A stretch of DNA of 40,310 bases, taken from positions 1-40,310 of the IMG/VR virus record IMGVR_UViG_3300044701_002192, one strand, 5' to 3'. The translations under genes and the position numbers were made by a program. Positions 28,877-40,236 of the stretch are shown here, piece after piece; positions within the stretch are counted from its first letter, which is position 1, and each line of letters begins with the position of its first letter. Origin of the DNA: a virus. The notes below the pieces were generated by a model, which worked only from the letters and a program-made list of their open reading frames with translations, was not told the DNA's origin and ran no database searches.

Positions 28877-28905
28877 TTGACAAGTATATTTGTTTATGGT
28901 ATTCT
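28877..28905 (+). promoter_or_regulatory. plus-strand promoter facing away from its neighbour gene
   Basis: TTGACA, 17 bases, TATTCT, then CTACATCAAACGGACTTTT. It is back to back with the minus promoter at 28814-28842 and would transcribe toward the 3' end of the next minus-strand gene. First of seven similar promoters. Confidence 0.7.
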
Positions 28906-28978
28906 ACATCAAACGGACTTTTGGTGGACAAGGAATATCCAAAAAATGTCCAGAGTTTCTGAACATTCCCGGCAAAAA

Positions 28979-29200
28979 TTATAAACTTAAGTACGGACCT
29001 GTTACTGAGTATCCGTCGTTAGTTAGTTTATAAAATACTACTTGTCCGGTCTTTAGGTTTACTTGTATAATGTTACCATTAAGTACTGCAAGTTCAGCAT
29101 TACTTGAAAATGTGGCCAGGATTCCTCCAGATGCCAATCTAAGTTCCACTGAATTTGATGAGTTTACCACTACAAATCGTCCGGTGTGTATCTTTTCCAT
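28979..29200 (-). CDS. small hypothetical protein
   Basis: 73 residues, beta-rich (GRFVVVNSSNSVELRLASGG, ILATFSSNAELAVLNGN). AAGGAGA lies 11 bases before the ATG. Unrecognised. A TGATAGTG site occurs in its 5' leader at 29226-29233. Confidence 0.6.
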   Translation of the reverse strand: MEKIHTGRFVVVNSSNSVELRLASGGILATFSSNAELAVLNGNIIQVNLKTGQVVFYKLTNDGYSVTGPYLSL

Positions 29201-29225
29201 GTTTTTTGTTCTCCTTTAATAAAAA

Positions 29226-29233
29226 CACTATCA
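29226..29233 (-). repeat. TGATAGTG site (single)
   Basis: Minus strand TGATAGTG between the HNH gene and the 28979-29200 gene, 26 bases from the latter's start. Isolated leftmost copy of the 8-mer found in clusters beyond 32.7 kb. Confidence 0.45.
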
Positions 29234-29309
29234 CACTTTTAAATTATATGCAAGAATAACATTTAACGTTAACCTAAATACTTTACAATTAACTCTTTAT
29301 GTTAATACC

Positions 29310-29642
29310 ATGAAATGTCACTGGAAACACTGTTCTAACTTAGCAATAACTAAAGGTAAGTATTGCTCAACCACCTGCAAGAATAAGTTTCACGTAACCA
29401 AACACCGCAAGGACATCAAACGGAAAGCCGTGGAATACCTCGGAGGCGCATGTTCTCTCTGCGGGTATAGTAGGTGCATCTCTGCGCTAGAGTTTCACCA
29501 TAAAGACCCCAAAGAAAAGGACTTCAATATATCAAAGTCTTTAAAATCTTTTGAGACTATTAAGATTGAGTTAGATAAGTGTGTTTTGGTGTGTGCAAAC
29601 TGTCACCGGGAAATACACCAAGAAAAAGAACCGATATTTTAA
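29310..29642 (+). CDS. HNH endonuclease
   Basis: 110 residues. An N-terminal zinc finger (CHWKHCSNLAITKGKYCSTTC) precedes the HNH core: CSLCGY, then LEFHHKDPKEKDFNIS, then CVLVCANCHREIHQ, with both zinc-binding Cys pairs and the HH catalytic motif. Free-standing phage HNH enzymes are usually mobile homing-type nucleases. It is the only plus-strand gene in a long minus-strand array and lies beside tRNA-Asn, as expected for an inserted element. Confidence 0.88.
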   Translation: MKCHWKHCSNLAITKGKYCSTTCKNKFHVTKHRKDIKRKAVEYLGGACSLCGYSRCISALEFHHKDPKEKDFNISKSLKSFETIKIELDKCVLVCANCHREIHQEKEPIF

Positions 29643-29693
29643 GTGCTCGGTTCCACACACTTTTAACAAGGAGATGACACGAAACTTTTAAAA

Positions 29694-29770
29694 TGGCTCC
29701 GGCGGTTGGACTCGAACCAACGACATCAAAGTTAACAGCTTTGCGCTTCTACCAACTGAGCTACACCGGA
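29694..29770 (-). tRNA. tRNA-Asn (anticodon GTT)
   Basis: 77 bases with an encoded CCA. Acceptor TCCGGTG with CGCCGGA, discriminator G as in tRNA-Asn, anticodon loop CTGTTAA, T-arm GTTGG-TTCGAGT-CCAAC. Complete cloverleaf. No clear promoter immediately upstream. Confidence 0.93.
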
Positions 29771-29799
29771 ATGGTATCTCTTTACTCTCACTCTCTCTT

Positions 29800-29905
29800 T
29801 CTGAGGCGGCGAAACTCTAACCCGTAGTTGAGCTATATCAGCACATAGATTGAGCGATAAACTGCACCAAATGAGCTATAAAACCGGATCAAATGGGCGA
29901 TAAAA
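29800..29905 (-). other. tRNA-like 5' half remnants
   Basis: The minus strand contains in tandem GCTGATATAGCTCAACTACG (near 29830), a second GGTTTTATAGCTCATTTGGT (near 29880) and a weaker third copy TTTTTATCGCCCATTTGATC (near 29890-29905). Each resembles a tRNA acceptor plus D-arm, but no matching 3' half is seen. Probably decayed tRNA genes or duplicated fragments. Confidence 0.4.
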
Positions 29906-29908
29906 AGT

Positions 29909-29978
29909 GGGAACCAGTTAGAACTTAGAGAGAGACAGCTCTTTGCTCTATTTTTTATAACTGCGCCTGGTTCCCGCC
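29909..29978. repeat. long-range inverted repeat
   Basis: GGGAACCAG near 29911 and CTGGTTCCC near 29969 form nine pairs around a loop of about 50 bases. Together with the tRNA-like pieces to the left it fills a 270-base gap without genes. Confidence 0.5.
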
Positions 29979-30039
29979 GCACAGTGTTTTGTGTAACAAA
30001 CTACCAAGAGATATGAGACAAGTAGTTTATTACATTATA

Positions 30040-30336
30040 TCATAATATTACATTCATGTCAATAGCAGATGATGAAATATTTTCATTTGTTGTCAATTCA
30101 TTCACCATAGGAGTCGGATCTATCATACAACTAAAGTTATACTGACCACGTTGAGCCTTGAACTCTTTGTTCACAAAGATCCAGGTAAGCTCATTATACT
30201 CACACTTACCACTGCTTATCAGTGACAGCAATTGCTTACGAGAAACAATTGTACCATAAGTATTAATAATATAGCTAACCAACGCCTTACGTCGATCCCG
30301 ATTTCTACCCCACTTTGCGTTCTCATTATATATCAT
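30040..30336 (-). CDS. hypothetical protein, possible DNA-binding
   Basis: 98 residues. The basic N-terminus (WGRNRDRRKALVSYIINTYG) followed by VSRKQLLSLISSGKCEYNEL could be a winged or helix-turn-helix domain, but I cannot place it in a family. The C-terminal 25 residues look disordered. A weak promoter (TTGACT, short spacer, TATAAT) overlaps the upstream gene's end. Confidence 0.6.
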   Translation of the reverse strand: MIYNENAKWGRNRDRRKALVSYIINTYGTIVSRKQLLSLISSGKCEYNELTWIFVNKEFKAQRGQYNFSCMIDPTPMVNELTTNENISSSAIDMNVIL

Positions 30337-30367
30337 AACATTCTCACTTACATTATACTATTTTATA

Positions 30368-30718
30368 CTAAAAGTCAATACCCTTCTCTAAAATAAATTC
30401 ACCCTCTTTACCTCGAATAACCTTAGAAAACTTTATTGCAGTCTCATATCGGTCATTCTTGTCTCCTAGGCCGGTAAGAAGTACCTTTCCGGTAAGGGTA
30501 TCACCAAAATTTGCATTTGAGATTTTATTAGACGATGATGAAAGATATACTGCTCCGTATGTCGGATCTACTACAACTAAACTCTTAACCGTGATGCTTC
30601 TATAGTGTGATATAGGAACTAACTTACTTTTAGTCGAAACCACCTTTGCTCCAGTCAATGCAACTTTTACCTGCTTACCTTGTCTTAAGTGTTCTTCTAC
30701 CATTTGATTGTTTATCAT
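30368..30718 (-). CDS. hypothetical protein
   Basis: 116 residues, beta-rich with charged ends (GKQVKVALTGAKVVSTKSKL, KSLVVVDPTYGAVYLSS, FGDTLTGKVLLTG). Own promoter (-10 TATAGT, weak -35) with leader hairpin GAGA-ATTAAACC-TCTC and AGGAGAG before the ATG. Unrecognised. Confidence 0.6.
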   Translation of the reverse strand: MINNQMVEEHLRQGKQVKVALTGAKVVSTKSKLVPISHYRSITVKSLVVVDPTYGAVYLSSSSNKISNANFGDTLTGKVLLTGLGDKNDRYETAIKFSKVIRGKEGEFILEKGIDF

Positions 30719-30884
30719 ACTATTGTCTCTCCTGTGTTATGTTTGAGAGGTTTAATTCTCATTATAGGACTACTATAGCACACTTTTTATATTTTGAAAA
30801 GATTTTTTTTCACTTTTTTTCACTTTTTTTCACTTTTTAGGTGTCTTCGTGTATATATACTATAGACAAAAATATCAGCTCAAT

Positions 30885-31034
30885 ATGATATCTTTAGGAG
30901 GGGCTTCAGGCATCTCTGAACTCCGTAGAGTACAAGTCAATTCATCTACGGTAACTGCGCTGACAGGAATATTGATAAACGAGGAGGCTCTGTTGAATAA
31001 AAAATTGCAACCTCCGGAAGTGTTAATGCTATAA
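30885..31034 (+). CDS. possible small plus-strand protein or gene fragment
   Basis: 49 codons: MISLGGASGISELRRVQVNS and on, with composition less AT-rich than the surroundings. Good amino-acid composition but no ribosome site. It may be a remnant of a larger structural gene. Confidence 0.35.
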   Translation: MISLGGASGISELRRVQVNSSTVTALTGILINEEALLNKKLQPPEVLML

Positions 31035-31229
31035 AATTAACAATAAACTTCTCCGTTAGAATCGAAAGTCCACGTAAAGGAGTACCGCTAACCGCTTCTA
31101 CCTTTTTTTAAAGGTTGTGTTTATAGTCTATTCTATAACTTTTCTCTTGGATAGGAAAGTTCTATTCTAAATCCCAGATGTAAATTTAATATCTAAAAAA
31201 TATTAATATTAAAAAATAATCCGTAGAGA

Positions 31230-31285
31230 AAACGAGCCGAAGGCTCGTTTGAACGAGGATTTCAGCGAAGCTGAAATGCTCGTTC
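31230..31285. repeat. two adjacent strong hairpins
   Basis: AAACGAGCC-GAA-GGCTCGTTT (nine pairs) is followed directly by GAACGAG-G-ATTTCAGC-GAA-GCTGAAAT-G-CTCGTTC (15 pairs with a mismatch). On the minus strand both have CUUCG-type loops. They sit 14 bases after the small membrane gene's stop, so they may end or stabilise its mRNA. The rest of 31035-31298 shows no gene. Confidence 0.65.
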
Positions 31286-31298
31286 CTTTATAGAAGTT

Positions 31299-31457
31299 TT
31301 ATAAAAAGAAATAATCCACAATCAAATATAAAATCAGGATAAAAATTAAATCTTCTATTCCAGATTTAAATTCTTTAATAGATTTCTTTTTATACTTTTC
31401 TTTATGAATACTCTTATGATAGGTTTCTAAACAAGTTTTAAGTTCTTTAGGTCCCAT
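31299..31457 (-). CDS. small membrane protein candidate
   Basis: 52 residues: a basic N-terminal half (ETYHKSIHKEKYKKKSIKE) and one C-terminal hydrophobic segment (DLIFILILYLIVDYFFL). AGGATA ten bases before the ATG. A tail-anchored or pore-like toxin or host-takeover peptide is possible; no family recognised. Confidence 0.5.
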   Translation of the reverse strand: MGPKELKTCLETYHKSIHKEKYKKKSIKEFKSGIEDLIFILILYLIVDYFFL

Positions 31458-31538
31458 AAAAAGTTATATCCTATGAAAAATCTTATCCAAGATATCCTGT
31501 AGAGTTTCTATCCTGTACGTCCGGCCTAAAAAGATGAT

Positions 31539-31742
31539 TTAATTAATTTGCTCTGAGTCGCATTTTACGGCTCCTAGTAAGAGTTCTTTTGCTCTCATAA
31601 AAGATTCTACTGTATACTTACCTGCCATCATTTCCTTTCTAGCTATTTCAATACATCTTAAACAAGATGATGCATCAAACTTTCCGTGTATCTTTTCAAA
31701 GGTTTCAATTAGGTCAATAAATCTTTCCATCTTATCATTCAT
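31539..31742 (-). CDS. small hypothetical protein
   Basis: 67 residues, helical (MERFIDLIETFEKIHGKF, ESFMRAKELLLGAVK) with two cysteines in SSCLRCIEIARKE. AGGAGA lies about 12 bases upstream. Third gene of a unit started by the promoter at 32396. Confidence 0.6.
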   Translation of the reverse strand: MNDKMERFIDLIETFEKIHGKFDASSCLRCIEIARKEMMAGKYTVESFMRAKELLLGAVKCDSEQIN

Positions 31743-31749
31743 ATAAACA

Positions 31750-32064
31750 TTAATCTCCTACTGCATTATCATAACAATCTACTCCGATTGACCGGAGATT
31801 CCTGGCAATTGCTTCTGCTTGTGATAGTGCTATTCCGTCAGCATTATCGTATCCTATGTAAGCTGCTCTACCATATGTACCATAGGCTTTGCTTAAATAT
31901 CTTATTCCACAGGCTTCCAGAGCTTTTTTAAAGGCATTTAAAGTCTCTTTATTAGAACCTAAAGATAGGCATACATAAGCTCTACCACACCCGGACCTAT
32001 TTCCGGAACTAGTCACCATAAGTCCCTTTTGTATTTCTCGAATCATTTCGTTTGTTGTTGCCAT
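31750..32064 (-). CDS. hypothetical protein
   Basis: 104 residues; AAGGAGA before the ATG. Core RSGCGRAYVCLSLGSNKETL, then KKALEACGIRYLSKAYGTYG and SQAEAIARNLRSIGVDCYDN suggests an alpha/beta fold with repeated cysteine-containing strands. Unrecognised. Confidence 0.65.
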   Translation of the reverse strand: MATTNEMIREIQKGLMVTSSGNRSGCGRAYVCLSLGSNKETLNAFKKALEACGIRYLSKAYGTYGRAAYIGYDNADGIALSQAEAIARNLRSIGVDCYDNAVGD

Positions 32065-32077
32065 ACATTAGTCTCCT

Positions 32078-32335
32078 TTAAAGTATGTTTGTTACATTTA
32101 CCTCGAATAGTGTTGCGCCATAATTTTGACCCTTTTGGCACACAAGTTTCGCCGTGTGGATAATAGAATCTGATCCTAGATGTTTGTTGTGTCCCTCTAA
32201 AACAGATTGGTTGAATTGTGTTACAAAAGTCTCAAGGTTTTGTTTTGTTGCACGATGGCTCCAGGCGGTCTGCCATTTGTATCCACCTTGATCTACTACT
32301 TCCAATCTATATTTTGGTGTAACTGAGCGTCCCAT
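32078..32335 (-). CDS. conserved phage hypothetical protein
   Basis: 85 residues. Start GRSVTPKYRLEVVDQGGYKW and end YGATLFEVNVTNIL; beta-rich with a helix NLETFVTQFNQSVLEGHNKH. Unknown function. First gene of a three-gene unit. Confidence 0.7.
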   Translation of the reverse strand: MGRSVTPKYRLEVVDQGGYKWQTAWSHRATKQNLETFVTQFNQSVLEGHNKHLGSDSIIHTAKLVCQKGQNYGATLFEVNVTNIL

Positions 32336-32395
32336 ATCTCTTGTCTCCTTTTGTTTTGTTGAGTGTAAGGCTTATCTCTTTACCTTACACTCAAC

Positions 32396-32424
32396 ACTAT
32401 ACTACAAAATTATATTTTTGTCAA
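32396..32424 (-). promoter_or_regulatory. minus-strand promoter with long leader hairpin
   Basis: TTGACA, 17 bases, TATAGT, overlapping the end of the upstream gene. Its leader has GAGTGTAAGG and CCTTACACTC as a ten-pair stem around TAAAGAGATAAG, where other units have GAGAG/CTCTC: same structure, different sequence. Confidence 0.8.
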
Positions 32425-32670
32425 GTCTTTTTTTGCTTCAGGAAACTTTAGACCGAAATCCTCAATCATAATGTCCCGAATGTTTTCACGATCAATAGAG
32501 TCGGCAGCGAAATCATAGTTCTCCCGACTGAGAAGTTTTTCCAGAGCCCAAATCACATGATTCACGTTTGCACCCATCGGATAAATGCCGTCTTTACCGT
32601 AAAACTCAAGAACGTACTGAATGAATCCTTCGTGAGCCTCATCAATTGGTTGTTCATCATGATACCACAT
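32410..32670 (-). CDS. hypothetical protein
   Basis: 86 residues from ATG 32670 (AGGAGA eight bases upstream); a longer frame starts inside the leader and is rejected. Acidic, with YHDEQPIDEAHEGFIQYVLE and REDxDFAADSI-like helix. Unrecognised. Confidence 0.65.
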   Translation of the reverse strand: MWYHDEQPIDEAHEGFIQYVLEFYGKDGIYPMGANVNHVIWALEKLLSRENYDFAADSIDRENIRDIMIEDFGLKFPEAKKDLTKI

Positions 32671-32717
32671 ACTTTTATCTCCTTGTTGGTTTGAGAGTTT
32701 ATCTCTCATTATAGGAC

Positions 32718-32746
32718 TACTATACTACAAAAATATAATTTTGTCA
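32718..32746 (-). promoter_or_regulatory. minus-strand promoter with leader hairpin
   Basis: TTGACA, 17 bases, TATAGT, then AGTCCTATAATGAGAG and a GAGAG-ATAAA-CTCTC hairpin, then AAGGAGA. Drives the 32410-32670 gene. Confidence 0.85.
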
Positions 32747-32789
32747 ATTATATTTTTATATTTTTTTATAGAATCCTGTTTTATTAAGA

Positions 32790-32803
32790 CACTATCACTA
32801 TCA
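32790..32803 (-). repeat. TGATAGTG cluster, two copies
   Basis: Overlapping copies six bases apart on the minus strand, 44 bases upstream of a promoter -35. The neighbouring TAGAATCCTGTTTTA is shared with the 35.83 kb gap. AGGATA repeats follow to 32850. Confidence 0.7.
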
Positions 32804-32863
32804 TAGGATAGGATAAAATGCAGGATAAATTGAATAGGATATTTTTTAATCTCCTGAAAAAAA

Positions 32864-32891
32864 AAGACTCCGGCCTAAAAGCCGGAGTCTT
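32864..32891 (-). terminator. rho-independent terminator
   Basis: AAGACTCCGGC, six-base loop, GCCGGAGTCTT (11 pairs), followed on the minus strand by nine Ts. It ends the 32898-33194 transcript. Confidence 0.9.
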
Positions 32892-32897
32892 TTAAAA

Positions 32898-33194
32898 CTA
32901 CTTCACATTTCTAAACTTATATTCGGCACTTGCATGATGCCTATTCTCATATAAGTTGGTGCCATTAACTGTATGAGTAGCACCAACTTTATAATAGTGG
33001 TAATCGGAATCGAGTACCTCAACATTCACCGAAGAGTTCCAGCCACACCCATTAAGTTTTCTGCTCTTACTCAATACCTTTACGGTGGCTCCTTCCTTAT
33101 CGTAGAAGTTACTCAGGAAATACGTGGCTCCTACCTGTATCTCACTGTGTCGTTTTGCTATCCTAGCTCTCAATGCTTTCATGTCGAATCTCAT
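32898..33194 (-). CDS. hypothetical protein
   Basis: 98 residues from ATG 33194. Starts RFDMKALRARIAKRHSEIQV, then a beta-rich part (VGATYFLSNFYDKEGATVKV, NVEVLDSDYHYYKVGATHTV). AAGGAGATAG from the upstream gene's stop acts as its ribosome site, so the two are coupled. Unknown function. Confidence 0.7.
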   Translation of the reverse strand: MRFDMKALRARIAKRHSEIQVGATYFLSNFYDKEGATVKVLSKSRKLNGCGWNSSVNVEVLDSDYHYYKVGATHTVNGTNLYENRHHASAEYKFRNVK

Positions 33195-33198
33195 GATA

Positions 33199-33369
33199 CT
33201 ATCTCCTTGTCTTACGGTTAGACTTGCGTACAATCTTAGCGGCCTGGAGCCTCTGGCTCTCTTCTGGAGTATTCATGAATCCACCAAACATCTCCAGAGC
33301 TTTGATCATGTTATTGAGTTCCCAGGGTGCTCTGTTTCCGATTATTTTCTTAGCCTCTTCTAATGTCAT
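33199..33369 (-). CDS. small conserved phage protein
   Basis: 56 residues: MTLEEAKKIIGNRAPWELNN, then MIKALEMFGGFMNTPEESQR and a basic tail KSNRKTRR. This resembles small proteins of cyanophages with the pattern NMIKAL...LNTPEE.QRL.AAK. AGGAGAG precedes the ATG. Unknown function. Confidence 0.75.
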   Translation of the reverse strand: MTLEEAKKIIGNRAPWELNNMIKALEMFGGFMNTPEESQRLQAAKIVRKSNRKTRR

Positions 33370-33410
33370 AGTGTCTCTCCTATGTGAGCTTGATTGCTCA
33401 TTATGTTATC

Positions 33411-33439
33411 ACTATACCTTAAAAATATAGTTTTGTCAA
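33411..33439 (-). promoter_or_regulatory. minus-strand promoter with leader hairpin
   Basis: TTGACA, 17 bases, TATAGT, then ATAACATAATGAGC and the hairpin GAGC-AATCAA-GCTC. Drives the 33199 and 32898 genes. Confidence 0.85.
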
Positions 33440-33449
33440 TATATTTTTC

Positions 33450-33887
33450 CTACAAAGTAGCAATAACTTCCGGCTCAATTAACTTATCAAGCTCCGGCTT
33501 AACCTTAGTAAACCATTGGATTAACTTGGTTACACAATCATCAATAGACTTGGTGGAACTAACCTTGCGGAACTTAATTCCGTGCCGTCTCTGCATATAA
33601 TGACAAGTAATCTGCTCAAAGCTAACTTTGTCCATATCGACTGGACGACCGAAACCATCCATCAAGTGCATCATGAACTTCATGTGAACCGGAGAATTAT
33701 CTGCTATTCCGTACAGAGGGCTTACATCATGCACCATTATGAAAATATCCGATGTACTTAGTCCGAACTTCTCTGAGCGAGCCACAACCTTATACTTGTC
33801 GCCGAGAATAGAACGTAATTCTTCTCGAATCCGGTGTGCTGCTAGTGTAGACTCTACTTCTGCATATTGCTTTAATGATGCTGCCAT
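33450..33887 (-). CDS. hypothetical protein
   Basis: 145 residues from ATG 33887, AAGGAGA 11 bases upstream. LKQYAEVESTLAAHRIREEL is followed by an alpha/beta region (KYKVVARSEKFGLSTSDIFI, HMKFMMHLMDGFGRPVDM). Not recognised; the pattern recalls phage proteins of unknown role, without catalytic motifs. Confidence 0.7.
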   Translation of the reverse strand: MAASLKQYAEVESTLAAHRIREELRSILGDKYKVVARSEKFGLSTSDIFIMVHDVSPLYGIADNSPVHMKFMMHLMDGFGRPVDMDKVSFEQITCHYMQRRHGIKFRKVSSTKSIDDCVTKLIQWFTKVKPELDKLIEPEVIATL

Positions 33888-33938
33888 GTTAGTATATCTC
33901 CTTGTCTCTAGTATGAGCTTGATGCTCATTATGTTATC

Positions 33939-33967
33939 ACTATACCTTAAAAATATAATTTTGTCAA
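33939..33967 (-). promoter_or_regulatory. minus-strand promoter with leader hairpin
   Basis: TTGACA, 17 bases, TATAGT, ATAACATAATGAGC, hairpin GAGC-ATCAA-GCTC. Drives the 33450-33887 gene. Confidence 0.85.
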
Positions 33968-33976
33968 TATATTTTT

Positions 33977-34180
33977 TTATAGATAATAATTATGGATTGT
34001 CATTCTATCAGCCGGAACTTTAAGCATCTCTGATGCTAACTGATACAATTCTTTCACGCTTATCAGGAGTTCCCCTTCGTCTGTGAAACGATATTCTCCG
34101 TACTCGTTTCGTTGGTCGATGTATATGTCCCATGTGTAAAAATTAAAATCATCATTCCCGCAAACTGTTAGCTGTTTCAT
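33977..34180 (-). CDS. small hypothetical protein
   Basis: 67 residues: KQLTVCGNDDFNFYTWDIYI, a charged middle with ISVKELYQLASEMLKVPADR. AGAGAGA before the ATG is a looser ribosome site. Unrecognised. Confidence 0.65.
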   Translation of the reverse strand: MKQLTVCGNDDFNFYTWDIYIDQRNEYGEYRFTDEGELLISVKELYQLASEMLKVPADRMTIHNYYL

Positions 34181-34225
34181 AGTGTGTCTCTCTCTTATGT
34201 GAGCTTGATTGCTCAGTATAGGATT

Positions 34226-34254
34226 ACTATATCACAGGACATATTCTAAGTCAA
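34226..34254 (-). promoter_or_regulatory. minus-strand promoter with leader hairpin
   Basis: TTGACT, 17 bases, TATAGT, then AATCCTATACTGAGC with hairpin GAGC-AATCAA-GCTC. Back to back with the plus promoter at 34289. Confidence 0.8.
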
Positions 34255-34288
34255 TATATTTTTTCGCAAAAATATATTTTTTTAATGC

Positions 34289-34317: not shown

Positions 34318-34355
34318 ACATCAAACGAACTTTGCTCGGAGAACCAGGATATCCG

Positions 34356-34379: not shown

Positions 34380-34388
34380 TCCGAAAAA

Positions 34389-34952: not shown

Positions 34953-34998
34953 AGTTATCTCCTTGTCTCGATTGAGCTTGATTGCTCATTATGGAACT

Positions 34999-35027
34999 AC
35001 TATACTACAAAATTATATTTTTGTCAA
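34999..35027 (-). promoter_or_regulatory. minus-strand promoter with leader hairpin
   Basis: TTGACA, 17 bases, TATAGT, then AGTTCCATAATGAGC and hairpin GAGC-AATCAA-GCTC. Confidence 0.85.
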
Positions 35028-35040
35028 TATATTTTATTGA

Positions 35041-35070
35041 GGTGGGGAACTTTTATTCCCCACCTTTTTT
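35041..35070. terminator. rho-independent terminator
   Basis: GGTGGGGAA, loop CTTTTA, TTCCCCACC, six Ts on the plus strand. It is two bases past the stop of the minus-strand 35073 gene. On the minus strand it lacks a good T run. Confidence 0.75.
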
Positions 35071-35072
35071 AT

Positions 35073-35414
35073 TTACTGAGCCGCTATCTTGTATCGTACA
35101 GCATCAGATACAAGAAATGCAGCGGTGCGGTCGTGTCCACCAATATTCCATCGAGTAATCTGCTCAGTCGGAGTTCCCTCTTCTCCGAGGTAACTCTTTC
35201 CGTTCTTCCAATTGTATATCGTAGCAACAAGGGTTTCTCCGGTATCGGTGTTAATTTTCAATGTCCATTCCGCATCTGTTTTGTAGTCGTATCCGGCCAT
35301 AGGTTCTCCGAATAATTCTACTAAAGTCTCATATTGGGTATTGACGAAACCAACCAGGGAAGTTCCGTTAACTTCATCAAAATTATCCAGTTTTGTGATT
35401 TTCTCTATTGCCAT
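35073..35414 (-). CDS. conserved phage hypothetical protein
   Basis: 113 residues. LVGFVNTQYETLVELFGEPM, AEWTLKINTDTGETLVATIYNW and TRWNIGGHDRTAAFLVSDAV define a phage family I recognise by pattern only; no function is known to me. Beta-sheet with a C-terminal helix. AAGGAGA before the ATG. Confidence 0.75.
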   Translation of the reverse strand: MAIEKITKLDNFDEVNGTSLVGFVNTQYETLVELFGEPMAGYDYKTDAEWTLKINTDTGETLVATIYNWKNGKSYLGEEGTPTEQITRWNIGGHDRTAAFLVSDAVRYKIAAQ

Positions 35415-35457
35415 ATCTCTTATCTCCTTGGTGAGCTTAATTGATCATTATGTTACC

Positions 35458-35486
35458 AATATACACCAAAAATATATTTCCGTCAA
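35458..35486 (-). promoter_or_regulatory. minus-strand promoter, variant
   Basis: TTGACG, 17 bases, TATATT, then GGTAACATAATGATC. The leader hairpin is weaker (GATC-AATTAA-GCTC, one mismatch). Confidence 0.65.
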
Positions 35487-35494
35487 TATATTTT

Positions 35495-35719
35495 TTATTC
35501 ATCCGATAAAATTAGCTTCTCATCAAATACTTCCTCGTACATCTCAATCAATTCTTTATCCTCTAAACTCTCGATTCCTGTCATACCGTAGCGGAATATT
35601 CCTTCAATAAATTGATCCCTAGCTTTGGCGTCATCATATATGCATTCCAGCTTATATTCAATAATTTCTGTAATGGCGTCTTCTCGACTCAAGTATGCTT
35701 CATCTCTTTCATTGTCCAT
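35495..35719 (-). CDS. small acidic hypothetical protein
   Basis: 74 residues, strongly acidic and helical (YLSREDAITEIIEYKLECIY, KELIEMYEEVFDEKLILSDE). It starts MDN and ends ILSDE, as does the 38794 gene, so the two may be diverged copies. Unrecognised. Confidence 0.65.
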   Translation of the reverse strand: MDNERDEAYLSREDAITEIIEYKLECIYDDAKARDQFIEGIFRYGMTGIESLEDKELIEMYEEVFDEKLILSDE

Positions 35720-35767
35720 TTCATATCTCCTTGTTTTGTGTGAGAGTTAATCTCTCATTATAGGACT

Positions 35768-35796
35768 ACTATACTACAAAAATATAATTTTGTCAA
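35768..35796 (-). promoter_or_regulatory. minus-strand promoter with leader hairpin
   Basis: TTGACA, 17 bases, TATAGT, AGTCCTATAATGAGAG, hairpin GAGAG-ATTAA-CTCTC, AAGGAGA. Confidence 0.85.
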
Positions 35797-35840
35797 TACT
35801 ATTTTTATATTTTTTTTTATAGAATCCTGTTTTACTCGGA

Positions 35841-35854
35841 CACTATCACTATCA
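35841..35854 (-). repeat. TGATAGTG cluster, two copies
   Basis: Copies six bases apart, minus strand, inside ATCCGATGATAGTGATAGTG; the flank TAGAATCCTGTTTTA is shared with the 32.78 kb gap. GGATA repeats follow. Confidence 0.75.
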
Positions 35855-35890
35855 TCGGATATTTGAAGGATATTTTTTTAATATCCTAAA

Positions 35891-35924
35891 AAGAGGCTCC
35901 GACCTATTCAGATCGGAGCCTCTT
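35891..35924 (-). terminator. rho-independent terminator
   Basis: AAGAGGCTCCGA, ten-base loop, TCGGAGCCTCTT (12 pairs), followed by Ts on the minus strand. Ends the 35930 gene. Confidence 0.9.
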
Positions 35925-35929
35925 ACCTC

Positions 35930-36415
35930 TTACCAACTGGAAGAGTAATAGAAATCACAATGGTCATACTCAGACTCAAGTAACGGACTAAGCATCTCTA
36001 TAGTGTACTCTAAATCATTAAAATAGTGTTCGTCATACTCAGTGCTTCCGAAGAAGAATCCGTCTTCTGTTGGAAGTAGTGAAGGAGCTAAATTCCGGTG
36101 CTTTAGTACATCTCGACATATCGCAAGAAGGTTTCTAATGTCATCGCGACTAACATTAACGGATTGACAATCATCGTGTCCGCTCTGAAGATTATCCACG
36201 AACCACTTGTGGATTTGATTAGCCTTTCTCCATTTTACTAAAACAGCTTTCAGCGTAAAAAAAGTATCCTTCTTAAAAGCTGGCGGAACTAACGGAAGAT
36301 TTTTTATTGCATCAATCGAGTTCCTCATTTTATTTTTGAACTCCACATCGTCTCCGAATTGTGCATCATACTCAGAAAAGGTAACACTAGCTTTTAGGTA
36401 CATATCGAGTCCCAT
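35930..36415 (-). CDS. conserved phage hypothetical protein
   Basis: 161 residues. MGLDMYLKASVTF at the start, KWRKANQIHKWFVDNLQSGH in the middle and GFFFGSTEYDEHYFNDLEYT near the end form a pattern very common in phage genomes and never given a function that I know. AAGGAGA precedes the ATG. Own promoter and terminator. Confidence 0.85.
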   Translation of the reverse strand: MGLDMYLKASVTFSEYDAQFGDDVEFKNKMRNSIDAIKNLPLVPPAFKKDTFFTLKAVLVKWRKANQIHKWFVDNLQSGHDDCQSVNVSRDDIRNLLAICRDVLKHRNLAPSLLPTEDGFFFGSTEYDEHYFNDLEYTIEMLSPLLESEYDHCDFYYSSSW

Positions 36416-36470
36416 ATCTCTTATCTCCTTGTCTCTCTTGAGCTTGATTGCTCATTTTTATTATAGGAAC

Positions 36471-36499
36471 ATATTACCACAAAATCTCAGAATTGTCAA
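36471..36499 (-). promoter_or_regulatory. minus-strand promoter, variant
   Basis: TTGACA, 17 bases, TAATAT, then TTCCTATAATAAAAATGAGC and hairpin CTTGAGC... arranged as GAGC-AATCAA-GCTC. Drives the 35930-36415 gene. Confidence 0.65.
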
Positions 36500-36561
36500 T
36501 TATATTTTTTCAGAAAAATATATTTTTTTGTCTCTTGACAATCCTGAGAAAGTATGATATA

Positions 36562-36723
36562 CTACTTACTTCTAATCGCTCTCAGGAATTCCCGGTGTCG
36601 CTTCTCCGCTTCACTAGGATTATCCTTCTTATCGATGCTCTGCTCATACCGGATCATTTTATTGATTAGTGATAGTGCTATATCCTTAGAGCTTCTGTCC
36701 AAATTTGCTGGTTTCTTATTCAT
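36562..36723 (-). CDS. small hypothetical protein
   Basis: 53 residues: NKKPANLDRSSKDIALSLIN, KMIRYEQSIDKKDNPSEAEK and RHREFLRAIRSK; basic and helical. AAGGAGA is nine bases before the inner ATG at 36723 and three before an outer ATG at 36729, so the inner one is preferred. It is downstream of a strong hairpin in the same transcript. Confidence 0.65.
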   Translation of the reverse strand: MNKKPANLDRSSKDIALSLINKMIRYEQSIDKKDNPSEAEKRHREFLRAIRSK

Positions 36724-36745
36724 AATCATATCTCCTTTACTTTCA

Positions 36746-36773
36746 GGAAGGGGGAGCTATTTCTCCCCCTTCC
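36746..36773 (-). other. intercistronic hairpin
   Basis: GGAAGGGGGAG and CTCCCCCTTCC, 11 perfect pairs, between the 36786 gene and the 36562 gene, without a T run. It may be an attenuator, processing site or mRNA stabiliser rather than a full terminator. Confidence 0.6.
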
Positions 36774-36785
36774 CATCTAATCTTC

Positions 36786-36980
36786 TTAGAACGGATTTGA
36801 CCAATTATAGGCTTGATTGTCTGATACTTGGCCATCTTTGTTGAGCGAGTCAACAAAATTGTTGAACATCTCCCGCTTCATAACGGAGTCTCCCTTTGCG
36901 GCAGGATTATACTTCTTGTGCTCTAACCAAAGCTCGGAAAACATTACCAGGACCTGTTTCTTGTTTAATTTTTTTCTCAT
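36786..36980 (-). CDS. small conserved phage protein
   Basis: 64 residues: RKKLNKKQVLVMFSELWLEH, then KREMFNNFVDSLNKDGQVSD and the ending AYNWSNPF. The NxxxDSLxKDGxI...WxNPF ending is one I associate with small phage proteins. Unknown function. AAGGAGA before the ATG. Confidence 0.7.
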   Translation of the reverse strand: MRKKLNKKQVLVMFSELWLEHKKYNPAAKGDSVMKREMFNNFVDSLNKDGQVSDNQAYNWSNPF

Positions 36981-37027
36981 ACATATCTCCTTTATGTTTA
37001 GAGTTATCTCTTACTCTTTATAGGAAC

Positions 37028-37056
37028 AGTATAACAGATACTTGATGATTAGTCAA
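37028..37056 (-). promoter_or_regulatory. minus-strand promoter with leader hairpin
   Basis: TTGACT, 17 bases, TATACT, then GTTCCTATAAAGAGTAAGAG with hairpin AGAG-ATA-ACTCT. Drives the 36786 and 36562 genes. Confidence 0.75.
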
Positions 37057-37077
37057 GCATCTATTTTATTTTTTTTT

Positions 37078-37314
37078 TTACAATTTAAGGAACGTATAGG
37101 TACAGACATCTCCACCTAATCCGGTGTTGGCATCGTTAGTCCATGAGAAGTAAGCATCGTCCTCGATATTGATACAAGCTCCTACCTCATACTCCTGAAG
37201 GTATGCATCAATAGCCTCGGCTTCACCATCTTGCAGTCCACTTGCATCTCCGTACATGAGGTAGCAAGCCCAGTACATCGGTAATGTTAATTCGACCATA
37301 TCTCTTTGTTCCAT
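37078..37314 (-). CDS. conserved phage hypothetical protein
   Basis: 78 residues from ATG 37314 (AAGGAGA eight bases upstream); the longer frame begins in the leader. Patterns are VELTLPMYWACYLMYGDASG, LQDGEAEAIDAYLQEY and FSWTNDANTGLGGDVCTYTF, typical of a phage family without known function. Small, acidic. Confidence 0.72.
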   Translation of the reverse strand: MEQRDMVELTLPMYWACYLMYGDASGLQDGEAEAIDAYLQEYEVGACINIEDDAYFSWTNDANTGLGGDVCTYTFLKL

Positions 37315-37356
37315 ATATTGTCTCCTTATATGAACATCTTTAATTGTTAGATGACA

Positions 37357-37385
37357 AGCATACCACAACCGGATATGCTTGTCAA
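37357..37385 (-). promoter_or_regulatory. minus-strand promoter, divergent leader
   Basis: TTGACA, 17 bases, TATGCT, TGTCATCTAACAATTAAAGA; the leader hairpin here is CATCT-AACAATTAA-AGATG, unrelated in sequence to the GAGAG type but at the same place. Confidence 0.7.
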
Positions 37386-37394
37386 TATATTTTT

Positions 37395-37616
37395 TTACTT
37401 AAACAGTCCTTGGTAAGTATAATCTCCATTGTGCTCGATGCCGTACATATCACACAATTTTCCAACAACGGCACGAAGCAATTCGTTAGAGGTAACAGCC
37501 GGATGTCCACCTTGTGTCTGAGATACCTCGCTTGACCATCTCGCCAAGGTATTAGCTACAGCGACAGGATTGCAAGCTGATTGAAGGAATTCGACGTTCT
37601 CTTTAGTTAGTTCCAT
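37395..37616 (-). CDS. small hypothetical protein
   Basis: 73 residues: ELTKENVEFLQSACNPVAVA, TQGGHPAVTSNELLRAVVGK and LCDMYGIEHNGDYTYQGLF. Helical. Unrecognised. Ribosome site GGAGAG. Confidence 0.65.
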   Translation of the reverse strand: MELTKENVEFLQSACNPVAVANTLARWSSEVSQTQGGHPAVTSNELLRAVVGKLCDMYGIEHNGDYTYQGLFK

Positions 37617-37665
37617 GTTTGTCTCTCCATGTTTTGTTTGAGAGCTTATCTCTCATTATAGGACT

Positions 37666-37694
37666 ACTATATCATATCAGATGCATCACGTCAA
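37666..37694 (-). promoter_or_regulatory. minus-strand promoter with leader hairpin
   Basis: TTGACG, 17 bases, TATAGT, AGTCCTATAATGAGAG, hairpin GAGAG-ATAAG-CTCTC. Confidence 0.8.
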
Positions 37695-37728
37695 TATATT
37701 TTTGCAGAAAAATATATTTTTTTAATTC

Positions 37729-37757
37729 TTGACAAAAAATAAAATCCATGTTATACT
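37729..37757 (+). promoter_or_regulatory. plus-strand promoter (first of a tandem pair)
   Basis: TTGACA, 17 bases, TATACT, then ACATCAAAGAGGATTTTTTA. A second promoter of the same type follows 74 bases downstream. Confidence 0.75.
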
Positions 37758-37802
37758 ACATCAAAGAGGATTTTTTAGGATAAAAATAATTATTTTTTTC
37801 TC

Positions 37803-37831
37803 TTGACAAAAATATATTTTTGTGGTATTCT
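37803..37831 (+). promoter_or_regulatory. plus-strand promoter (second of the pair)
   Basis: TTGACA, 17 bases, TATTCT, ACATCAAAGGGACATAGCCT. Drives the short RNA with four TGATAGTG copies. Confidence 0.8.
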
Positions 37832-37869
37832 ACATCAAAGGGACATAGCCTGGATATAGGAGTGCTCCG

Positions 37870-37912
37870 TGATAGTGTATACCCATGATAGTGATAGTGT
37901 CCGATGATAGTG
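37870..37912 (+). repeat. TGATAGTG cluster, four copies
   Basis: Copies start at 37870, 37886, 37892 and 37905 (spacings 16, 6, 13). Densest cluster in the window. The 6 and 13 spacings recur at 38719-38745. Confidence 0.8.
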
Positions 37913-37955
37913 AATCTCCACTCAATCTTATTTTAATTGAGTGGAGATTCTTTTC
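37912..37955. terminator. rho-independent terminator, 15-pair stem
   Basis: GAATCTCCACTCAAT, nine-base loop, ATTGAGTGGAGATTC, then TTTTCTT. It ends the plus-strand short RNA directly before the 3' end of the 37956 gene. Confidence 0.9.
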
Positions 37956-38180
37956 TTAACCAATAAGAACTACTGATTTACATTCTGTCTCAGTATCATC
38001 TGGATCTTCTACTACCTTACACATCCGGTGATATCCAGAGTATTCAACCATGCCGAGGTCAACGGAAGATACTTTTGGAGCTACTTGTGTGCGCCAGTAG
38101 TCTCCGCTGCTATACTGGAAGTGTACCTCTGCATCAGCCGGAAGTTGAGATAATTCTACAATTAGGTCGTGGACTTTCAT
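37956..38180 (-). CDS. small conserved phage protein
   Basis: 74 residues: MKVHDLIVELSQLPADAEVH followed by FQYSSGDYWRTQVAPKVSSV and the ending ETECKSVVLIG. The LxxLPxDAEVxF opening is widespread in small phage proteins of unknown function. It lies one base after the 38182 gene stop. Confidence 0.75.
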   Translation of the reverse strand: MKVHDLIVELSQLPADAEVHFQYSSGDYWRTQVAPKVSSVDLGMVEYSGYHRMCKVVEDPDDTETECKSVVLIG

Positions 38181-38181
38181 G

Positions 38182-38430
38182 TTATTGCCTCCAGTCGTTA
38201 GTTATTTTATTGAGTATCGCAGCTCCATGAGTGCGGATAAGATGCTGAGTAAACTCGATTACCTCTCGCGGAAAGTATTCTGGATTATCGAATCCAAAAT
38301 TGCCGTTGTCATACATTATCGGATAATCGCAGAACCATCCATCATCGAGACACCAATATCCGGTGCCGTTGTCTCTGGTTACTCGTCTGAGGGTATAGTC
38401 ACTCCACTTGGCTACTGTTATCTCTTTCAT
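38182..38430 (-). CDS. hypothetical protein, paralogue of 39025-39240
   Basis: 82 residues from ATG 38430. The core YTLRRVTRDNGTGYWCLDDG, WFCDYPIMYDNGNFGFDNPE is nearly the same as in the 39025 gene (YTITRVTRDNGTGYWKLDDG). It extends about 20 residues further at the C-terminus (THGAAILNKITNDWRQ). Function unknown. GGAGAG before the ATG. Confidence 0.75.
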   Translation of the reverse strand: MKEITVAKWSDYTLRRVTRDNGTGYWCLDDGWFCDYPIMYDNGNFGFDNPEYFPREVIEFTQHLIRTHGAAILNKITNDWRQ

Positions 38431-38478
38431 GTTGTCTCTCCATGTTTTGTTTGAGAGCTTATCTCTCATTATAGGACT

Positions 38479-38507
38479 ACTATATCACAACCAATAGTTC
38501 CCGTCAA
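38479..38507 (-). promoter_or_regulatory. minus-strand promoter with leader hairpin
   Basis: TTGACG, 17 bases, TATAGT, AGTCCTATAATGAGAG, hairpin GAGAG-ATAAG-CTCTC. The -35 to -10 region is almost identical to the promoter at 39292. Confidence 0.85.
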
Positions 38508-38551
38508 TATATTTTATTAAAATAAATTATTTTTTTTTATTATTTTTTATC

Positions 38552-38580
38552 TTGACAAAATTATTTTTTTGTGGTATAAT
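38552..38580 (+). promoter_or_regulatory. consensus plus-strand sigma70 promoter
   Basis: TTGACA, 17 bases, TATAAT: a perfect consensus promoter on the strand opposite to all nearby genes. Unlike the others it is not followed by ACATCAAA. Confidence 0.85.
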
Positions 38581-38718
38581 AGAGGTAGCACAGGAAAGCC
38601 AGGAGTTGTCCGGCTGTCCTTGTGTTCCTAGTAGTTTTTTGCTGTTTGCAAAAATGTATTATTGGTATTATAAAGGTATTCTATACTTTATATCCCTAGC
38701 CAATCCTTATTCCATATA

Positions 38719-38745
38719 TGATAGTGATAGTGTCCGATGATAGTG
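38719..38745 (+). repeat. TGATAGTG cluster, three copies
   Basis: Copies at 38719, 38725 and 38738; the surrounding ATGATAGTGATAGTGTCCGA is identical to that at 37885. Confidence 0.8.
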
Positions 38746-38747
38746 AA

Positions 38748-38792
38748 AATCCCAGACCCTGACTCTTTTGAACCAGGACCTGGGATTCTTTT
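38748..38792. terminator. terminator hairpin
   Basis: AATCCCAG with CTGGGATT around a second stem CCTG/CAGG, then CTTTTG. It lies two bases before the 3' end of the 38794 gene. Confidence 0.75.
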
Positions 38793-38793
38793 G

Positions 38794-39012
38794 TTACTCG
38801 TCTGATAGTATTATATCATCATAGCTAAAACGTAGGCTTAACTCTCTCTTAATGTCTGCCGGAGAGTAGTTATAGTATCCGGTGTGGCCAGTGAGTAGTA
38901 TTTGTTTGAGGTACTCTAGATCACCACACTCCAGATCATCTTCCAGTAGCATCTCTAGTGCTTCAGCTATTGATACTCTTAAAACATCGTTAGTGTCTAA
39001 TTGATTGTCCAT
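38794..39012 (-). CDS. small acidic hypothetical protein
   Basis: 72 residues: MDNQLDTNDVLRVSIAEALE, then MLLEDDLECGDLEYLKQILL and LRFSYDDIILSDE. It shares length, acidity, MDN start and ILSDE end with the 35495 gene. Unknown function. It is 12 bases downstream of the 39025 gene and probably co-transcribed with it. Confidence 0.65.
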   Translation of the reverse strand: MDNQLDTNDVLRVSIAEALEMLLEDDLECGDLEYLKQILLTGHTGYYNYSPADIKRELSLRFSYDDIILSDE

Positions 39013-39024
39013 GTTTGTGTCTCC

Positions 39025-39240
39025 TTATTTGTTTGTGTAGTCAAGTATTACGTTCTTGGTCCATTCGATTATACCGGCCGGGAACCATTCTGGATTATCA
39101 AATCCGAACTTGCCGGAATCATACAGTATTGGGTAATCGCATACCCAACCATCATCTAGTTTCCAGTAGCCAGTTCCGTTGTCTCTGGTTACTCTGGTTA
39201 TAGTATAGTCACCCATATAAGCGATCATCTGTTCTATCAT
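39025..39240 (-). CDS. hypothetical protein, paralogue of 38182-38430
   Basis: 71 residues. RVTRDNGTGYWKLDDGWVCD, YPILYDSGKFGFDNPEWFPA matches the 38182 gene at most positions. The promoter region upstream is duplicated as well, so this is a recent segmental duplication. The CDYP and FDNPE motifs are conserved in both copies. AAGGAGA about 10 bases upstream of the ATG. Confidence 0.75.
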   Translation of the reverse strand: MIEQMIAYMGDYTITRVTRDNGTGYWKLDDGWVCDYPILYDSGKFGFDNPEWFPAGIIEWTKNVILDYTNK

Positions 39241-39291
39241 GATTAAATATCTCCTTGAATTATATAAGGGTAAATCTCTTATTGTAGGATT

Positions 39292-39320
39292 ACTATATCA
39301 CAACCAATAGTTCCCGTCAA
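39292..39320 (-). promoter_or_regulatory. minus-strand promoter
   Basis: TTGACG, 17 bases, TATAGT, AATCCTACAATAAGAG. Leader pairing is weaker here (AAGAG-ATTTACC-CTT). Drives 39025 and 38794. Confidence 0.8.
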
Positions 39321-39366
39321 TATATTTTATTAAAATAAATTATTTTTTTTTTTATTATTTTTTATC

Positions 39367-39395
39367 TTGACAAAATTATTTTTTTGTGGTATACT
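39367..39395 (+). promoter_or_regulatory. plus-strand promoter of a short RNA
   Basis: TTGACA, 17 bases, TATACT, ACATCAAAGGGACTTTTCTT. Its upstream 70 bases are nearly identical to those before the 38552 promoter. Confidence 0.8.
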
Positions 39396-39401
39396 ACATC
39401 A

Positions 39402-39505
39402 AAGGGACTTTTCTTGGAACAACGGGACATTATTCCGTGATAGTGAACTCCATTCTTTTTACTTTAAGAGCAGGAAGGAATTGTTAATCCCTTCCTGCTC
39501 TATCG
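39402..39505 (+). ncRNA. candidate short RNA
   Basis: Runs from the 39367 promoter to a 12-pair hairpin AGAGCAGGAAGG/CCTTCCTGCTCT at 39467-39501, next to the 39508 gene's 3' end. It holds CCGTGATAGTG (copy at 39438). The hairpin lacks a T run, so read-through as antisense RNA is possible. Confidence 0.45.
39467..39501. terminator. hairpin between convergent transcripts
   Basis: Twelve pairs, eleven-base loop. No strong T run on either strand; terminator function is likely by position. Confidence 0.6.
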
Positions 39506-39507
39506 AA

Positions 39508-39711
39508 TTAGAACTCCTTACTTTGCATGAAAGCCTCGAACTCTTGGCGACTAATCATCTTCAGGTCGACGGCGACTTCCGCATTGATGGTGTGACACTC
39601 TTCTTGGATAACTGGATGCCATAGGCTGGATATCTTTGATCCTGGTTCGTAGTTATCTCTTGCCCATTGTTTGAACTCTTTAAGCTCTTCCGCATTTAAT
39701 AGTCTGAACAT
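39508..39711 (-). CDS. small conserved phage protein
   Basis: 67 residues from ATG 39711, AAGGAGA seven bases upstream. MFRLLNAEELKEFKQWARDN then YEPGSKISSLWHPVIQEECH; the W-A-R-x-N-Y-x-P-G pattern plus WHPV is one I associate with phage proteins of unknown role. Follows the 39784 gene past a hairpin. Confidence 0.7.
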   Translation of the reverse strand: MFRLLNAEELKEFKQWARDNYEPGSKISSLWHPVIQEECHTINAEVAVDLKMISRQEFEAFMQSKEF

Positions 39712-39742
39712 AAATCTCCTTTTATTGTCAATAGTTTTTAAT

Positions 39743-39774
39743 GAGATGGTGGGAACTTTTATTCCCACCATCTC
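39743..39774 (-). other. intercistronic hairpin
   Basis: GAGATGGTGGGAA and TTCCCACCATCTC, 13 perfect pairs, between the 39784 and 39508 genes and without a T run on the minus strand. Like the hairpin at 36746 it sits just ahead of an internal ribosome site. Confidence 0.65.
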
Positions 39775-39783
39775 GCTTTATCT

Positions 39784-40083
39784 CTAGTGAGTGCGATATG
39801 TCGCAAGCATATTTTCCTCTATCTTTGAGTGTAGCTCCCGAGCAGGAATTCTCTTAACATTAAACGCAACGTACGGACCGTTTTTAGTCTCCTCTCTAAA
39901 ATAATAGTTTATTTGCCGTGTGGTGGTGGGACTATACTTTTCAGTACAGGTAAAATAGTCGGTCCCGTCAAATAATACAACCGGAGTCTCATACGAGATC
40001 ATCACCTTCTTTCCGTTTGGGTACTGGAGCTCCTTCATATTCTTGGCTCCGAACTTTTTGATCTTGTGTGGTGCTGTTTTCAT
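39784..40083 (-). CDS. conserved phage hypothetical protein
   Basis: 99 residues. KELQYPNGKKVMISYETPVV, then TCTEKYSPTTTRQINYYFRE, a phage pattern (SYxTPV ... YSxTTxRHIN) that I recognise without a known function. Probably a small beta protein. AAGGAGATA before the ATG. Confidence 0.75.
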   Translation of the reverse strand: MKTAPHKIKKFGAKNMKELQYPNGKKVMISYETPVVLFDGTDYFTCTEKYSPTTTRQINYYFREETKNGPYVAFNVKRIPARELHSKIEENMLATYRTH

Positions 40084-40134
40084 GTTATTATATCTCCTTG
40101 AATTAAATAAGAATTAATCTCTTATTATAGGACT

Positions 40135-40163
40135 ACTATATCAGATCATTGATCAATAGTCAA
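40135..40163 (-). promoter_or_regulatory. minus-strand promoter with leader hairpin
   Basis: TTGACT, 17 bases, TATAGT, AGTCCTATAATAAGAG, hairpin AAGA-GATTAA-TTCTT. A/T version of the same leader stem. Confidence 0.8.
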
Positions 40164-40207
40164 TAATAAATCAACAAAAAAAATATTTTTTTTTATTATT
40201 TTTATGC

Positions 40208-40236
40208 TTGACAAAATTATTTTTTTGTGGTATACT
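40208..40236 (+). promoter_or_regulatory. plus-strand promoter, transcript leaves the window
   Basis: TTGACA, 17 bases, TATACT, ACATCAAACGGACTTTTCTT. Seventh copy; its RNA runs past base 40310. Confidence 0.8.

Follow-up and report, generated by a model that had tools for sequence, protein, structure and literature searches.

The virus record IMGVR_UViG_3300044701_002192 of IMG/VR is a stretch of 40,310 bases, evidently a fragment, to which we refer in its full length as the window. Towards its right end, plus-strand promoters lie in the gaps between small minus-strand genes and point backwards, against the genes that flank them. We consider it probable, at roughly 60%, that they belong to duplicated promoter/stem-loop cassettes similar to the promoter-early stem-loop (PeSL) cassettes that Arbiol (2010) and Comeau (2014) are said to have described in T4-like phages, except that a reverse early promoter, which would make short untranslated RNAs, is added to them, and that these cassettes have recombined at the promoter block. 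Visible in the DNA itself are the promoters, their pairing with promoters of the opposite strand, their repetition, the 5' ends they share, the stem-loops, and one junction at which a near-identical promoter block is joined to an unrelated (predicted) RNA.

A first-pass annotation of the window had placed seven plus-strand promoters between minus-strand genes. All seven were recovered where it put them, with exact -35 boxes at 28877, 34289, 37729, 37803, 38552, 39367 and 40208, and the genes flanking each site do lie on the opposite strand; a plus-strand open reading frame (ORF), 29310-29642, begins 433 nt downstream of 28877. These reverse promoters are referred to as class B, and are listed below together with an eighth, poorer-fitting plus-strand promoter at 36535.

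28877 to 28978, plus strand: class B unit 1, TTGACA-17-TATTCT with the ACATCAAACGGAC leader and a predicted start at about 28912, in a gap where no hairpin was found.
34289 to 34416, plus strand: class B unit 2, TTGACA-17-TATTCT, predicted start at about 34324, TGATAGTG boxes at 34356 and 34372, and a stem-loop at 34385-34416 with U-tracts on both strands.
36535 to 36563, plus strand: extra promoter, TTGACA-17-TATACT, without ACATCAAA, divergent from the minus-strand promoter at 36499.
37729 to 37802, plus strand: class B unit 3, TTGACA-17-TATACT with ACATCAAA, 74 nt upstream of unit 4, into which it reads.
37803 to 37950, plus strand: class B unit 4, TTGACA-17-TATTCT, predicted start at about 37838, four TGATAGTG boxes, and a stem-loop at 37912-37950 whose U-tract is confined to the plus strand.
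38552 to 38788, plus strand: class B unit 5, TTGACA-17-TATAAT, an unrelated, structured RNA body (z -2.9), three TGATAGTG boxes, and an imperfect stem-loop at 38747-38788.
39367 to 39501, plus strand: class B unit 6, TTGACA-17-TATACT, predicted start at about 39402, a TGATAGTG box at 39438, and a stem-loop at 39467-39501 with weak U-tracts only.
40208 to 40310, plus strand: class B unit 7, TTGACA-17-TATACT, ACATCAAACGGAC and two inverted TGATAGTG boxes, cut by the contig end.

A chance origin of these promoters is ruled out by shuffle counts and a backwards-read control. The window contains 11 matches to the pattern TTGACAN{15,19}TATWMT, where 0.45 would be expected and none of 100 shuffles reaches 11, and these matches are the seven reverse promoters plus 36535 (plus), 8030 (plus), 9983 (plus) and 30034 (minus). 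The narrower TTGACA..TATWMTACATCAAA occurs six times on the plus strand of the window, and neither on its minus strand nor in the backwards-read control. A TG extension is present in 8/8 plus-strand promoters, 36535 counted. We also list in support that the transfer-messenger RNA (tmRNA) of the same phage directly follows a TTGACA promoter (8030).

A feature absent from the first-pass annotation is that the first plus-strand promoter in each of seven gaps (36535 included) stands back-to-back with the minus-strand promoter of an early gene. The paired -35 boxes are separated by 34-35 nt in four gaps and by 44-46 nt in three. Most minus-strand cassettes, of one to three genes, have such a promoter of their own (class A, TTGACN-17-TATAGT in most), and the partners are as follows.

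34226 to 34254, minus strand: example of a class A partner promoter, TTGACT-17-TATAGT, serving the minus-strand gene 33977-34180.
28842, 36499, 37694, 38507, 39320 and 40163, minus strand: starts of the -35 boxes of the other partner promoters.

The seven units are clearly related, although less uniformly than was first thought. Five of them have the first 23 nt after the -10 box in common (15/23 columns identical), of which about 17 would be transcribed according to the predicted starts, and the leader ACATCAAASGGAC is found in four to five of the seven. The annotation had assigned ACATCAAA[C/G]GGAC to nearly all units; it is exact in 4/7 (28877, 37803, 39367 and 40208) and has one mismatch in 34289, but 37729 keeps ACATCAAA only and 38552 is without the leader. 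When the promoter blocks of six units were compared, the block for 37803 being that of its tandem partner 37729, all pairs (15/15) scored above their own 30 shuffles. For the bodies past the first 13 nt after the -10 box, the similarity of 34289 to 37803, 39367 and 40208 was reached by 0/200 shuffles, and that of two more of the 15 pairs by 4/200 and 2/200. The remaining ten showed no excess over shuffles; they include all five pairs with 38552, for which the first 67 nt only were compared. The promoter block of 38552 is 97% identical to that of 39367, whereas their bodies are 28% identical against a shuffle mean of 30%. A near-identical promoter block joined to an unrelated RNA body is a sign of modular recombination, such as would arise if parts were swapped at the promoter. 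In addition, 28501-40310 contains 19 copies of TGATAGTG, where 0.5 would be expected. The units form a family as far as their promoter blocks, shared 5' ends and some of their bodies go, but the earlier description of a family of small phage RNAs goes further than this: the RNAs are predicted, no unit-bearing relative was found, the hairpin sequences are mostly unlike (one of six pairs above its shuffles), and a common fold was not found, with z between -0.6 and 0.4 for five bodies and only 38552 structured (z -2.9). As a separate observation, two adjoining small genes on the minus strand, 38182-38469 and 39025-39240, are paralogous by eye, and the promoter blocks upstream of them are likewise duplicated.

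Hairpins had been reported in four gaps, and this was borne out for 34289, 37803, 38552 and 39367, where they begin 61, 74, 160 and 65 nt, respectively, past the predicted starts and lie about 6 nt past the stop codon of the convergent minus-strand gene. A stable loop is present in four gaps out of seven, and its U-tract is good in two of them and fair, by eye, in one. The loops with a good plus-strand U-tract, at 34385 (both strands) and 37912 (plus strand only), look like terminators of the predicted plus-strand RNA, and the imperfect loop at 38747-38788 is followed by TTCTTTTG, as seen by eye. A guard against read-through, which the annotation also put forward, would agree with the two-way loop at 34385, but at 37912 the U-tract would serve the plus-strand transcript alone. 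Transcription from 37729 would read on into 37803, and that from 40208 would leave the contig before any loop. A further stem-loop, at 35039-35066, has a U-tract on the plus strand only and lies in a gap without a consensus plus-strand promoter.

In the arrangement we propose, a full cassette would consist of three parts: a stem-loop where one minus-strand gene ends, a block rich in A and T, and a host-type promoter from which the next minus-strand gene would be read. Seven gaps also carry, pointing backwards, another strong sigma70 promoter built in the same way (-35, TGn, -10 and A/T-rich upstream block). Host RNA polymerase would fire in both directions as infection begins, giving mRNA leftwards and, rightwards, an untranslated RNA of about 90-200 nt that would end at or near the stem-loop held in common with the convergent gene (4/7 gaps). 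The cassettes may have spread and swapped parts by recombination at the promoter block, in the manner of the PeSL cassettes of T4-like phages. We infer the transcription, its timing, its termination and the recombination history from the sequence, and most doubtful of all is whether the RNA itself has a use.

Gaps that hold a leader-bearing reverse promoter measure at least 217 nt; the gap 38470-38793 (324 nt) holds a reverse promoter without a leader, and 36535 lies in the gap 36416-36559 (144 nt). Where no reverse promoter is present, most gaps are no longer than 120 nt, with the exceptions of 32710-32897, 35720-35929, 29201-30039 and 30719-31538. The first two of these are described below.

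32710 to 32897, minus strand: gap of 188 nt with two inverted TGATAGTG boxes and no class B promoter; its stem-loop, 32862-32893, has the stronger U-tract on the minus strand.
35720 to 35929, minus strand: gap of 210 nt with two inverted TGATAGTG boxes and no class B promoter; its stem-loop, 35891-35924, has the stronger U-tract on the minus strand.

A number of observations weigh against the proposed cassettes. The stem-loop scan found no hairpin in the 28877 gap, the loop at 39467 has weak U-tracts only, on both strands, and 36535 reads directly into the 3' end of a 53-codon minus-strand ORF (36562-36723). Two gaps of more than 800 nt have no class B promoter, namely 29201-30039, which holds a tRNA and the plus-strand ORF, and 30719-31538. 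The TGATAGTG boxes also occur, inverted, in gaps that have no reverse promoter, and so need not be part of the RNA. Searches for relatives weigh in the same direction: scans of viral contigs and bacterial genomes for the leader-plus-promoter pattern turned up no related unit outside this virus, and a 68-position sequence model of the units had its best match outside the window at 14.8 bits (E 0.03, in 1.5 Mb) and no match in the phages Melnitz or Slicko01. Slicko01 keeps a distant homolog of the gene 28465-28761 and no unit, though the absence of a unit at such a distance says little. Finally, back-to-back promoters are common in viral contigs (at least 120 stretches), and among the 80 loci listed, 30/75 of the gap pairs lie between same-strand genes.

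Within the window, the same model scored the seven units at 46-70 bits, followed by six class A promoters at 17-23 bits. The pattern scans returned 7 + 6 viral stretches, of which two per scan are the same virus, and two bacterial ones; the others, by eye, lack a -35 box, are coding-like DNA, or stand ahead of a ribosome site and start codon. Homologs of the gene 28465-28761 occur in 356 phage records (nearest by score Slicko01, 48.5%), and homologs of the early proteins that were tried are distant or absent. The Rfam gathering cut-off was reached in the window only by the tmRNA and two tRNAs; RsaD at 34262-34416 (score 36 against a cut-off of 50) and SQ1002 at 35010-35074 (31.2 against 128) were rejected.

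Four other explanations of the reverse promoters were weighed, of which a trans-acting RNA, an effect of transcription in cis and a by-product are each plausible. A small-RNA family could act in trans early in infection through its 5' end, CAAASGGACUUUU..GGA, and the UGAUAGUG box, for instance by tying up a host RNA or an RNA-binding protein. The 23 nt shared by five units, the distance of exactly 11 nt between two GGA in four of these, the kinship of some bodies past the leader, and UCCGUGAUAGUG, which puts GATAGTG at about +34, +34 and +38 in three units, would fit such a role. Yet when seven RNAs were set against 44 mRNA starts of the window, no sign of pairing emerged (best-hit P 0.22-0.88, from 60 shuffles per RNA; three of the 26 minus-strand starts are one base off), a common fold is missing, and the boxes are inverted in other gaps. 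RNAs that titrate CsrA or RsmA carry many GGA motifs in hairpin loops; here the case for a GGA-rich CsrA decoy is marginal, since 495 nt contain 15 GGA where the dinucleotide shuffles give 8.6 (with a maximum of 16 among 300) and the opposite strand has 19. On balance we regard a trans-acting role as unlikely, and its fullest form as a shade less likely again: that a lytic T4-like phage has, in the gaps of its early region, a multicopy early small-RNA family made backwards from strong divergent promoters, whose members have roughly their first 17 nt in common, in many cases together with a UGAUAGUG box, target some factor of the host or the phage in trans, and spread as a mobile intergenic cassette. 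That the reverse promoters express tiny peptides is very improbable. In 34289 and 37803, AGGA or AGGAG does stand ahead of GTG codons, as it does ahead of an ATG ORF of 12 codons in 28877, but the candidate ORFs with such a site span 4-51 codons, are unlike one another by eye, and in some cases run into the antisense gene; with no conserved ORF seen among the units, peptide genes were rejected, and the predicted plus-strand RNAs look untranslated.

It may instead be the act of reverse transcription that matters rather than the RNA, with a rightward polymerase sharpening termination of the convergent minus-strand gene at the shared loop, or tuning the divergent promoter through supercoiling or competition for the shared A/T block. 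The position of the loops about 6 nt past the convergent stop codon would suit this, as would the two classes of back-to-back spacing, 34-35 and 44-46 nt, which differ by about one helical turn; however, the spacing classes may be two duplicate groups, so that the helical phasing may be coincidence, the loop at 37912 has no minus-strand U-tract, and compact gaps do without a reverse promoter. We hold an effect in cis to be doubtful. Similarly tentative is the view that the reverse promoters are a by-product, copies of early promoters carried along by cassette duplication and put to no use. Several of the class A and class B spacers closely copy one another, and the next-best matches of the model after the seven units are class A promoters; against this, the -35 box, the TG and a TATNNT -10 box are kept in 7/7 units while other parts diverge, and the leader is specific to class B (six plus-strand, no minus-strand occurrences).

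Divergent promoter pairs number eight in the window (seven of them in 28.8-40.2 kb) against 63 in 2.59 Mb of other loci, with overlapping loci left in this set. Back-to-back promoters as such were ruled out as a rare feature, being common in viral contigs; among the 80 loci listed, 33/75 of the gap pairs, weaker ones included, lie between divergent genes. Under a strict definition that also asks for a facing gap of 50 nt or more, eight comparison genomes (1.37 Mb, with ORFs from a home-made caller) gave a single reverse promoter, in S-RIM32, where the annotation shows a sense promoter, leaving none. The same count in the window is six, the tmRNA promoter among them and with 38552 (overlapped by a spurious plus-strand ORF) and 40208 (at the edge) left out. 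S-SRM01, nt-1, Aeh1, RB43, S-PM2, P-SSM2 and Slicko01 were covered by the promoter-pattern search alone, without gene context. Comparable sites do exist: in Melnitz (MZ577095.1, 71491-71916), a stretch of 426 nt flanked by two plus-strand genes holds three minus-strand TTGACA-17-TATAAT promoters in tandem, which are identical in the four Melnitz records, and it is annotated with two coding sequences of 37 and 29 codons; HTVC008M has two reverse promoters, the first in a gap (80267), the second where two genes meet (19434). Uniqueness among T4-like phages was therefore dropped. The two short coding sequences annotated in the Melnitz stretch may be spurious.

Relatives of the tail and baseplate proteins of the window were found in T4-like phages and cyanomyoviruses, and the best isolate match of a 455-aa virion protein is S-RIM32 (46%). 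From around the 25-kb position rightwards to the end, the genes are nearly all small and on the minus strand. Within this early region lies an ORF on the other strand.

29310 to 29642, plus strand: ORF, HNH-endonuclease-like by eye, within the minus-strand early region and downstream of the hairpin-less unit 28877.

Three other viral contigs are near-identical to parts of the window, and two of them extend it leftwards. One contig (G004) starts at a TGATAGTG box (window 32804), and the end of the window soon follows another, which suggests that repeats may have broken the assembly. On the minus strand of 28465-40083, many early mRNAs start with a similar short, hairpin-capable leader (such as AATGAGAGATAAGCTCTC) between promoter and ribosome site. 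At 8030-8468 on the plus strand, directly after the consensus promoter 8030, is a full-length match to a phage-encoded tmRNA (Rfam RF00023, 78.7 bits); its tag, read by eye, is ANFDSFDYALAA, and ARAGORN did not report this tmRNA. In Melnitz, too, a tmRNA follows an early promoter (PMC9004378).

If the RNAs are made, T4-like phages would hold repeated, mobile non-coding RNA units where annotation consists mainly of small proteins, and the idea could be tested in the cultured phage Melnitz. Should the RNAs have no use, the window would be a case of promoter duplication seeding antisense transcription in phage genomes.

No report of this layout was found in the literature searched, which comprised titles and abstract openings with incomplete coverage. 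The first-pass statement that no T4-like system of this kind is described was nevertheless too strong, given the PeSL cassettes (PMC4503421) and the RNA CfrI of S-PM2 (PMC12197685), and the Melnitz reverse promoters. Promoter/stem-loop cassettes are described in T4-like phages (PMC4503421), and the window resembles them in its strong sigma70-type early promoter between small accessory genes, joined in four of the seven gaps by a stem-loop, in its many related copies and in the signs of modular exchange. The strong sigma70-like early promoter in a gap and the many related copies among small accessory genes of a T4-like phage are both found; a possible trace of the gene exchange between related phages that PeSLs mediate is confined to an internal junction (38552 against 39367), no close relative with the cassettes having been found. 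The window probably differs from PeSLs in its additional reverse promoter, with a predicted short untranslated RNA. T4 early promoters have the structure UP/-35/TGn/-10 with a TG extension (PMC2988021), and those of the window share the -35, the -10, the TG extension and, by eye, the A/T-rich upstream block, but they point against the gene cluster and keep the leader ACATCAAASGGAC in four to five of seven units. Two cultured phages, the Methylophilales phage Melnitz-1 (MZ577095, 71491-71916) and the Pelagibacter phage HTVC008M (NC_020484, 80267-80295), likewise have consensus sigma70 promoters directed against both flanking genes, and the tandem spacing in Melnitz (74 and 77 nt) is close to the 74 nt of 37729/37803; unlike the window, Melnitz has no match to the unit model, which was run on Melnitz and not on HTVC008M, and repeated back-to-back cassettes were seen in neither.

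The bidirectional promoters of the Grainger group have near-symmetrical -10 elements and starts 7-25 bp apart (PMC10268837). They share with the window divergent transcription towards a non-coding RNA, which is predicted in the window, whereas the window has two full -35/-10 promoters with -35 boxes 34-46 nt apart and predicted starts about 100 bp apart. CfrI is an antisense RNA of cyanophage S-PM2 linked to psbA (PMC12197685). Like the RNAs predicted here, it is an antisense RNA from an intergenic region of a T4-like phage; CfrI, however, is one RNA, and the window would encode a multicopy family.

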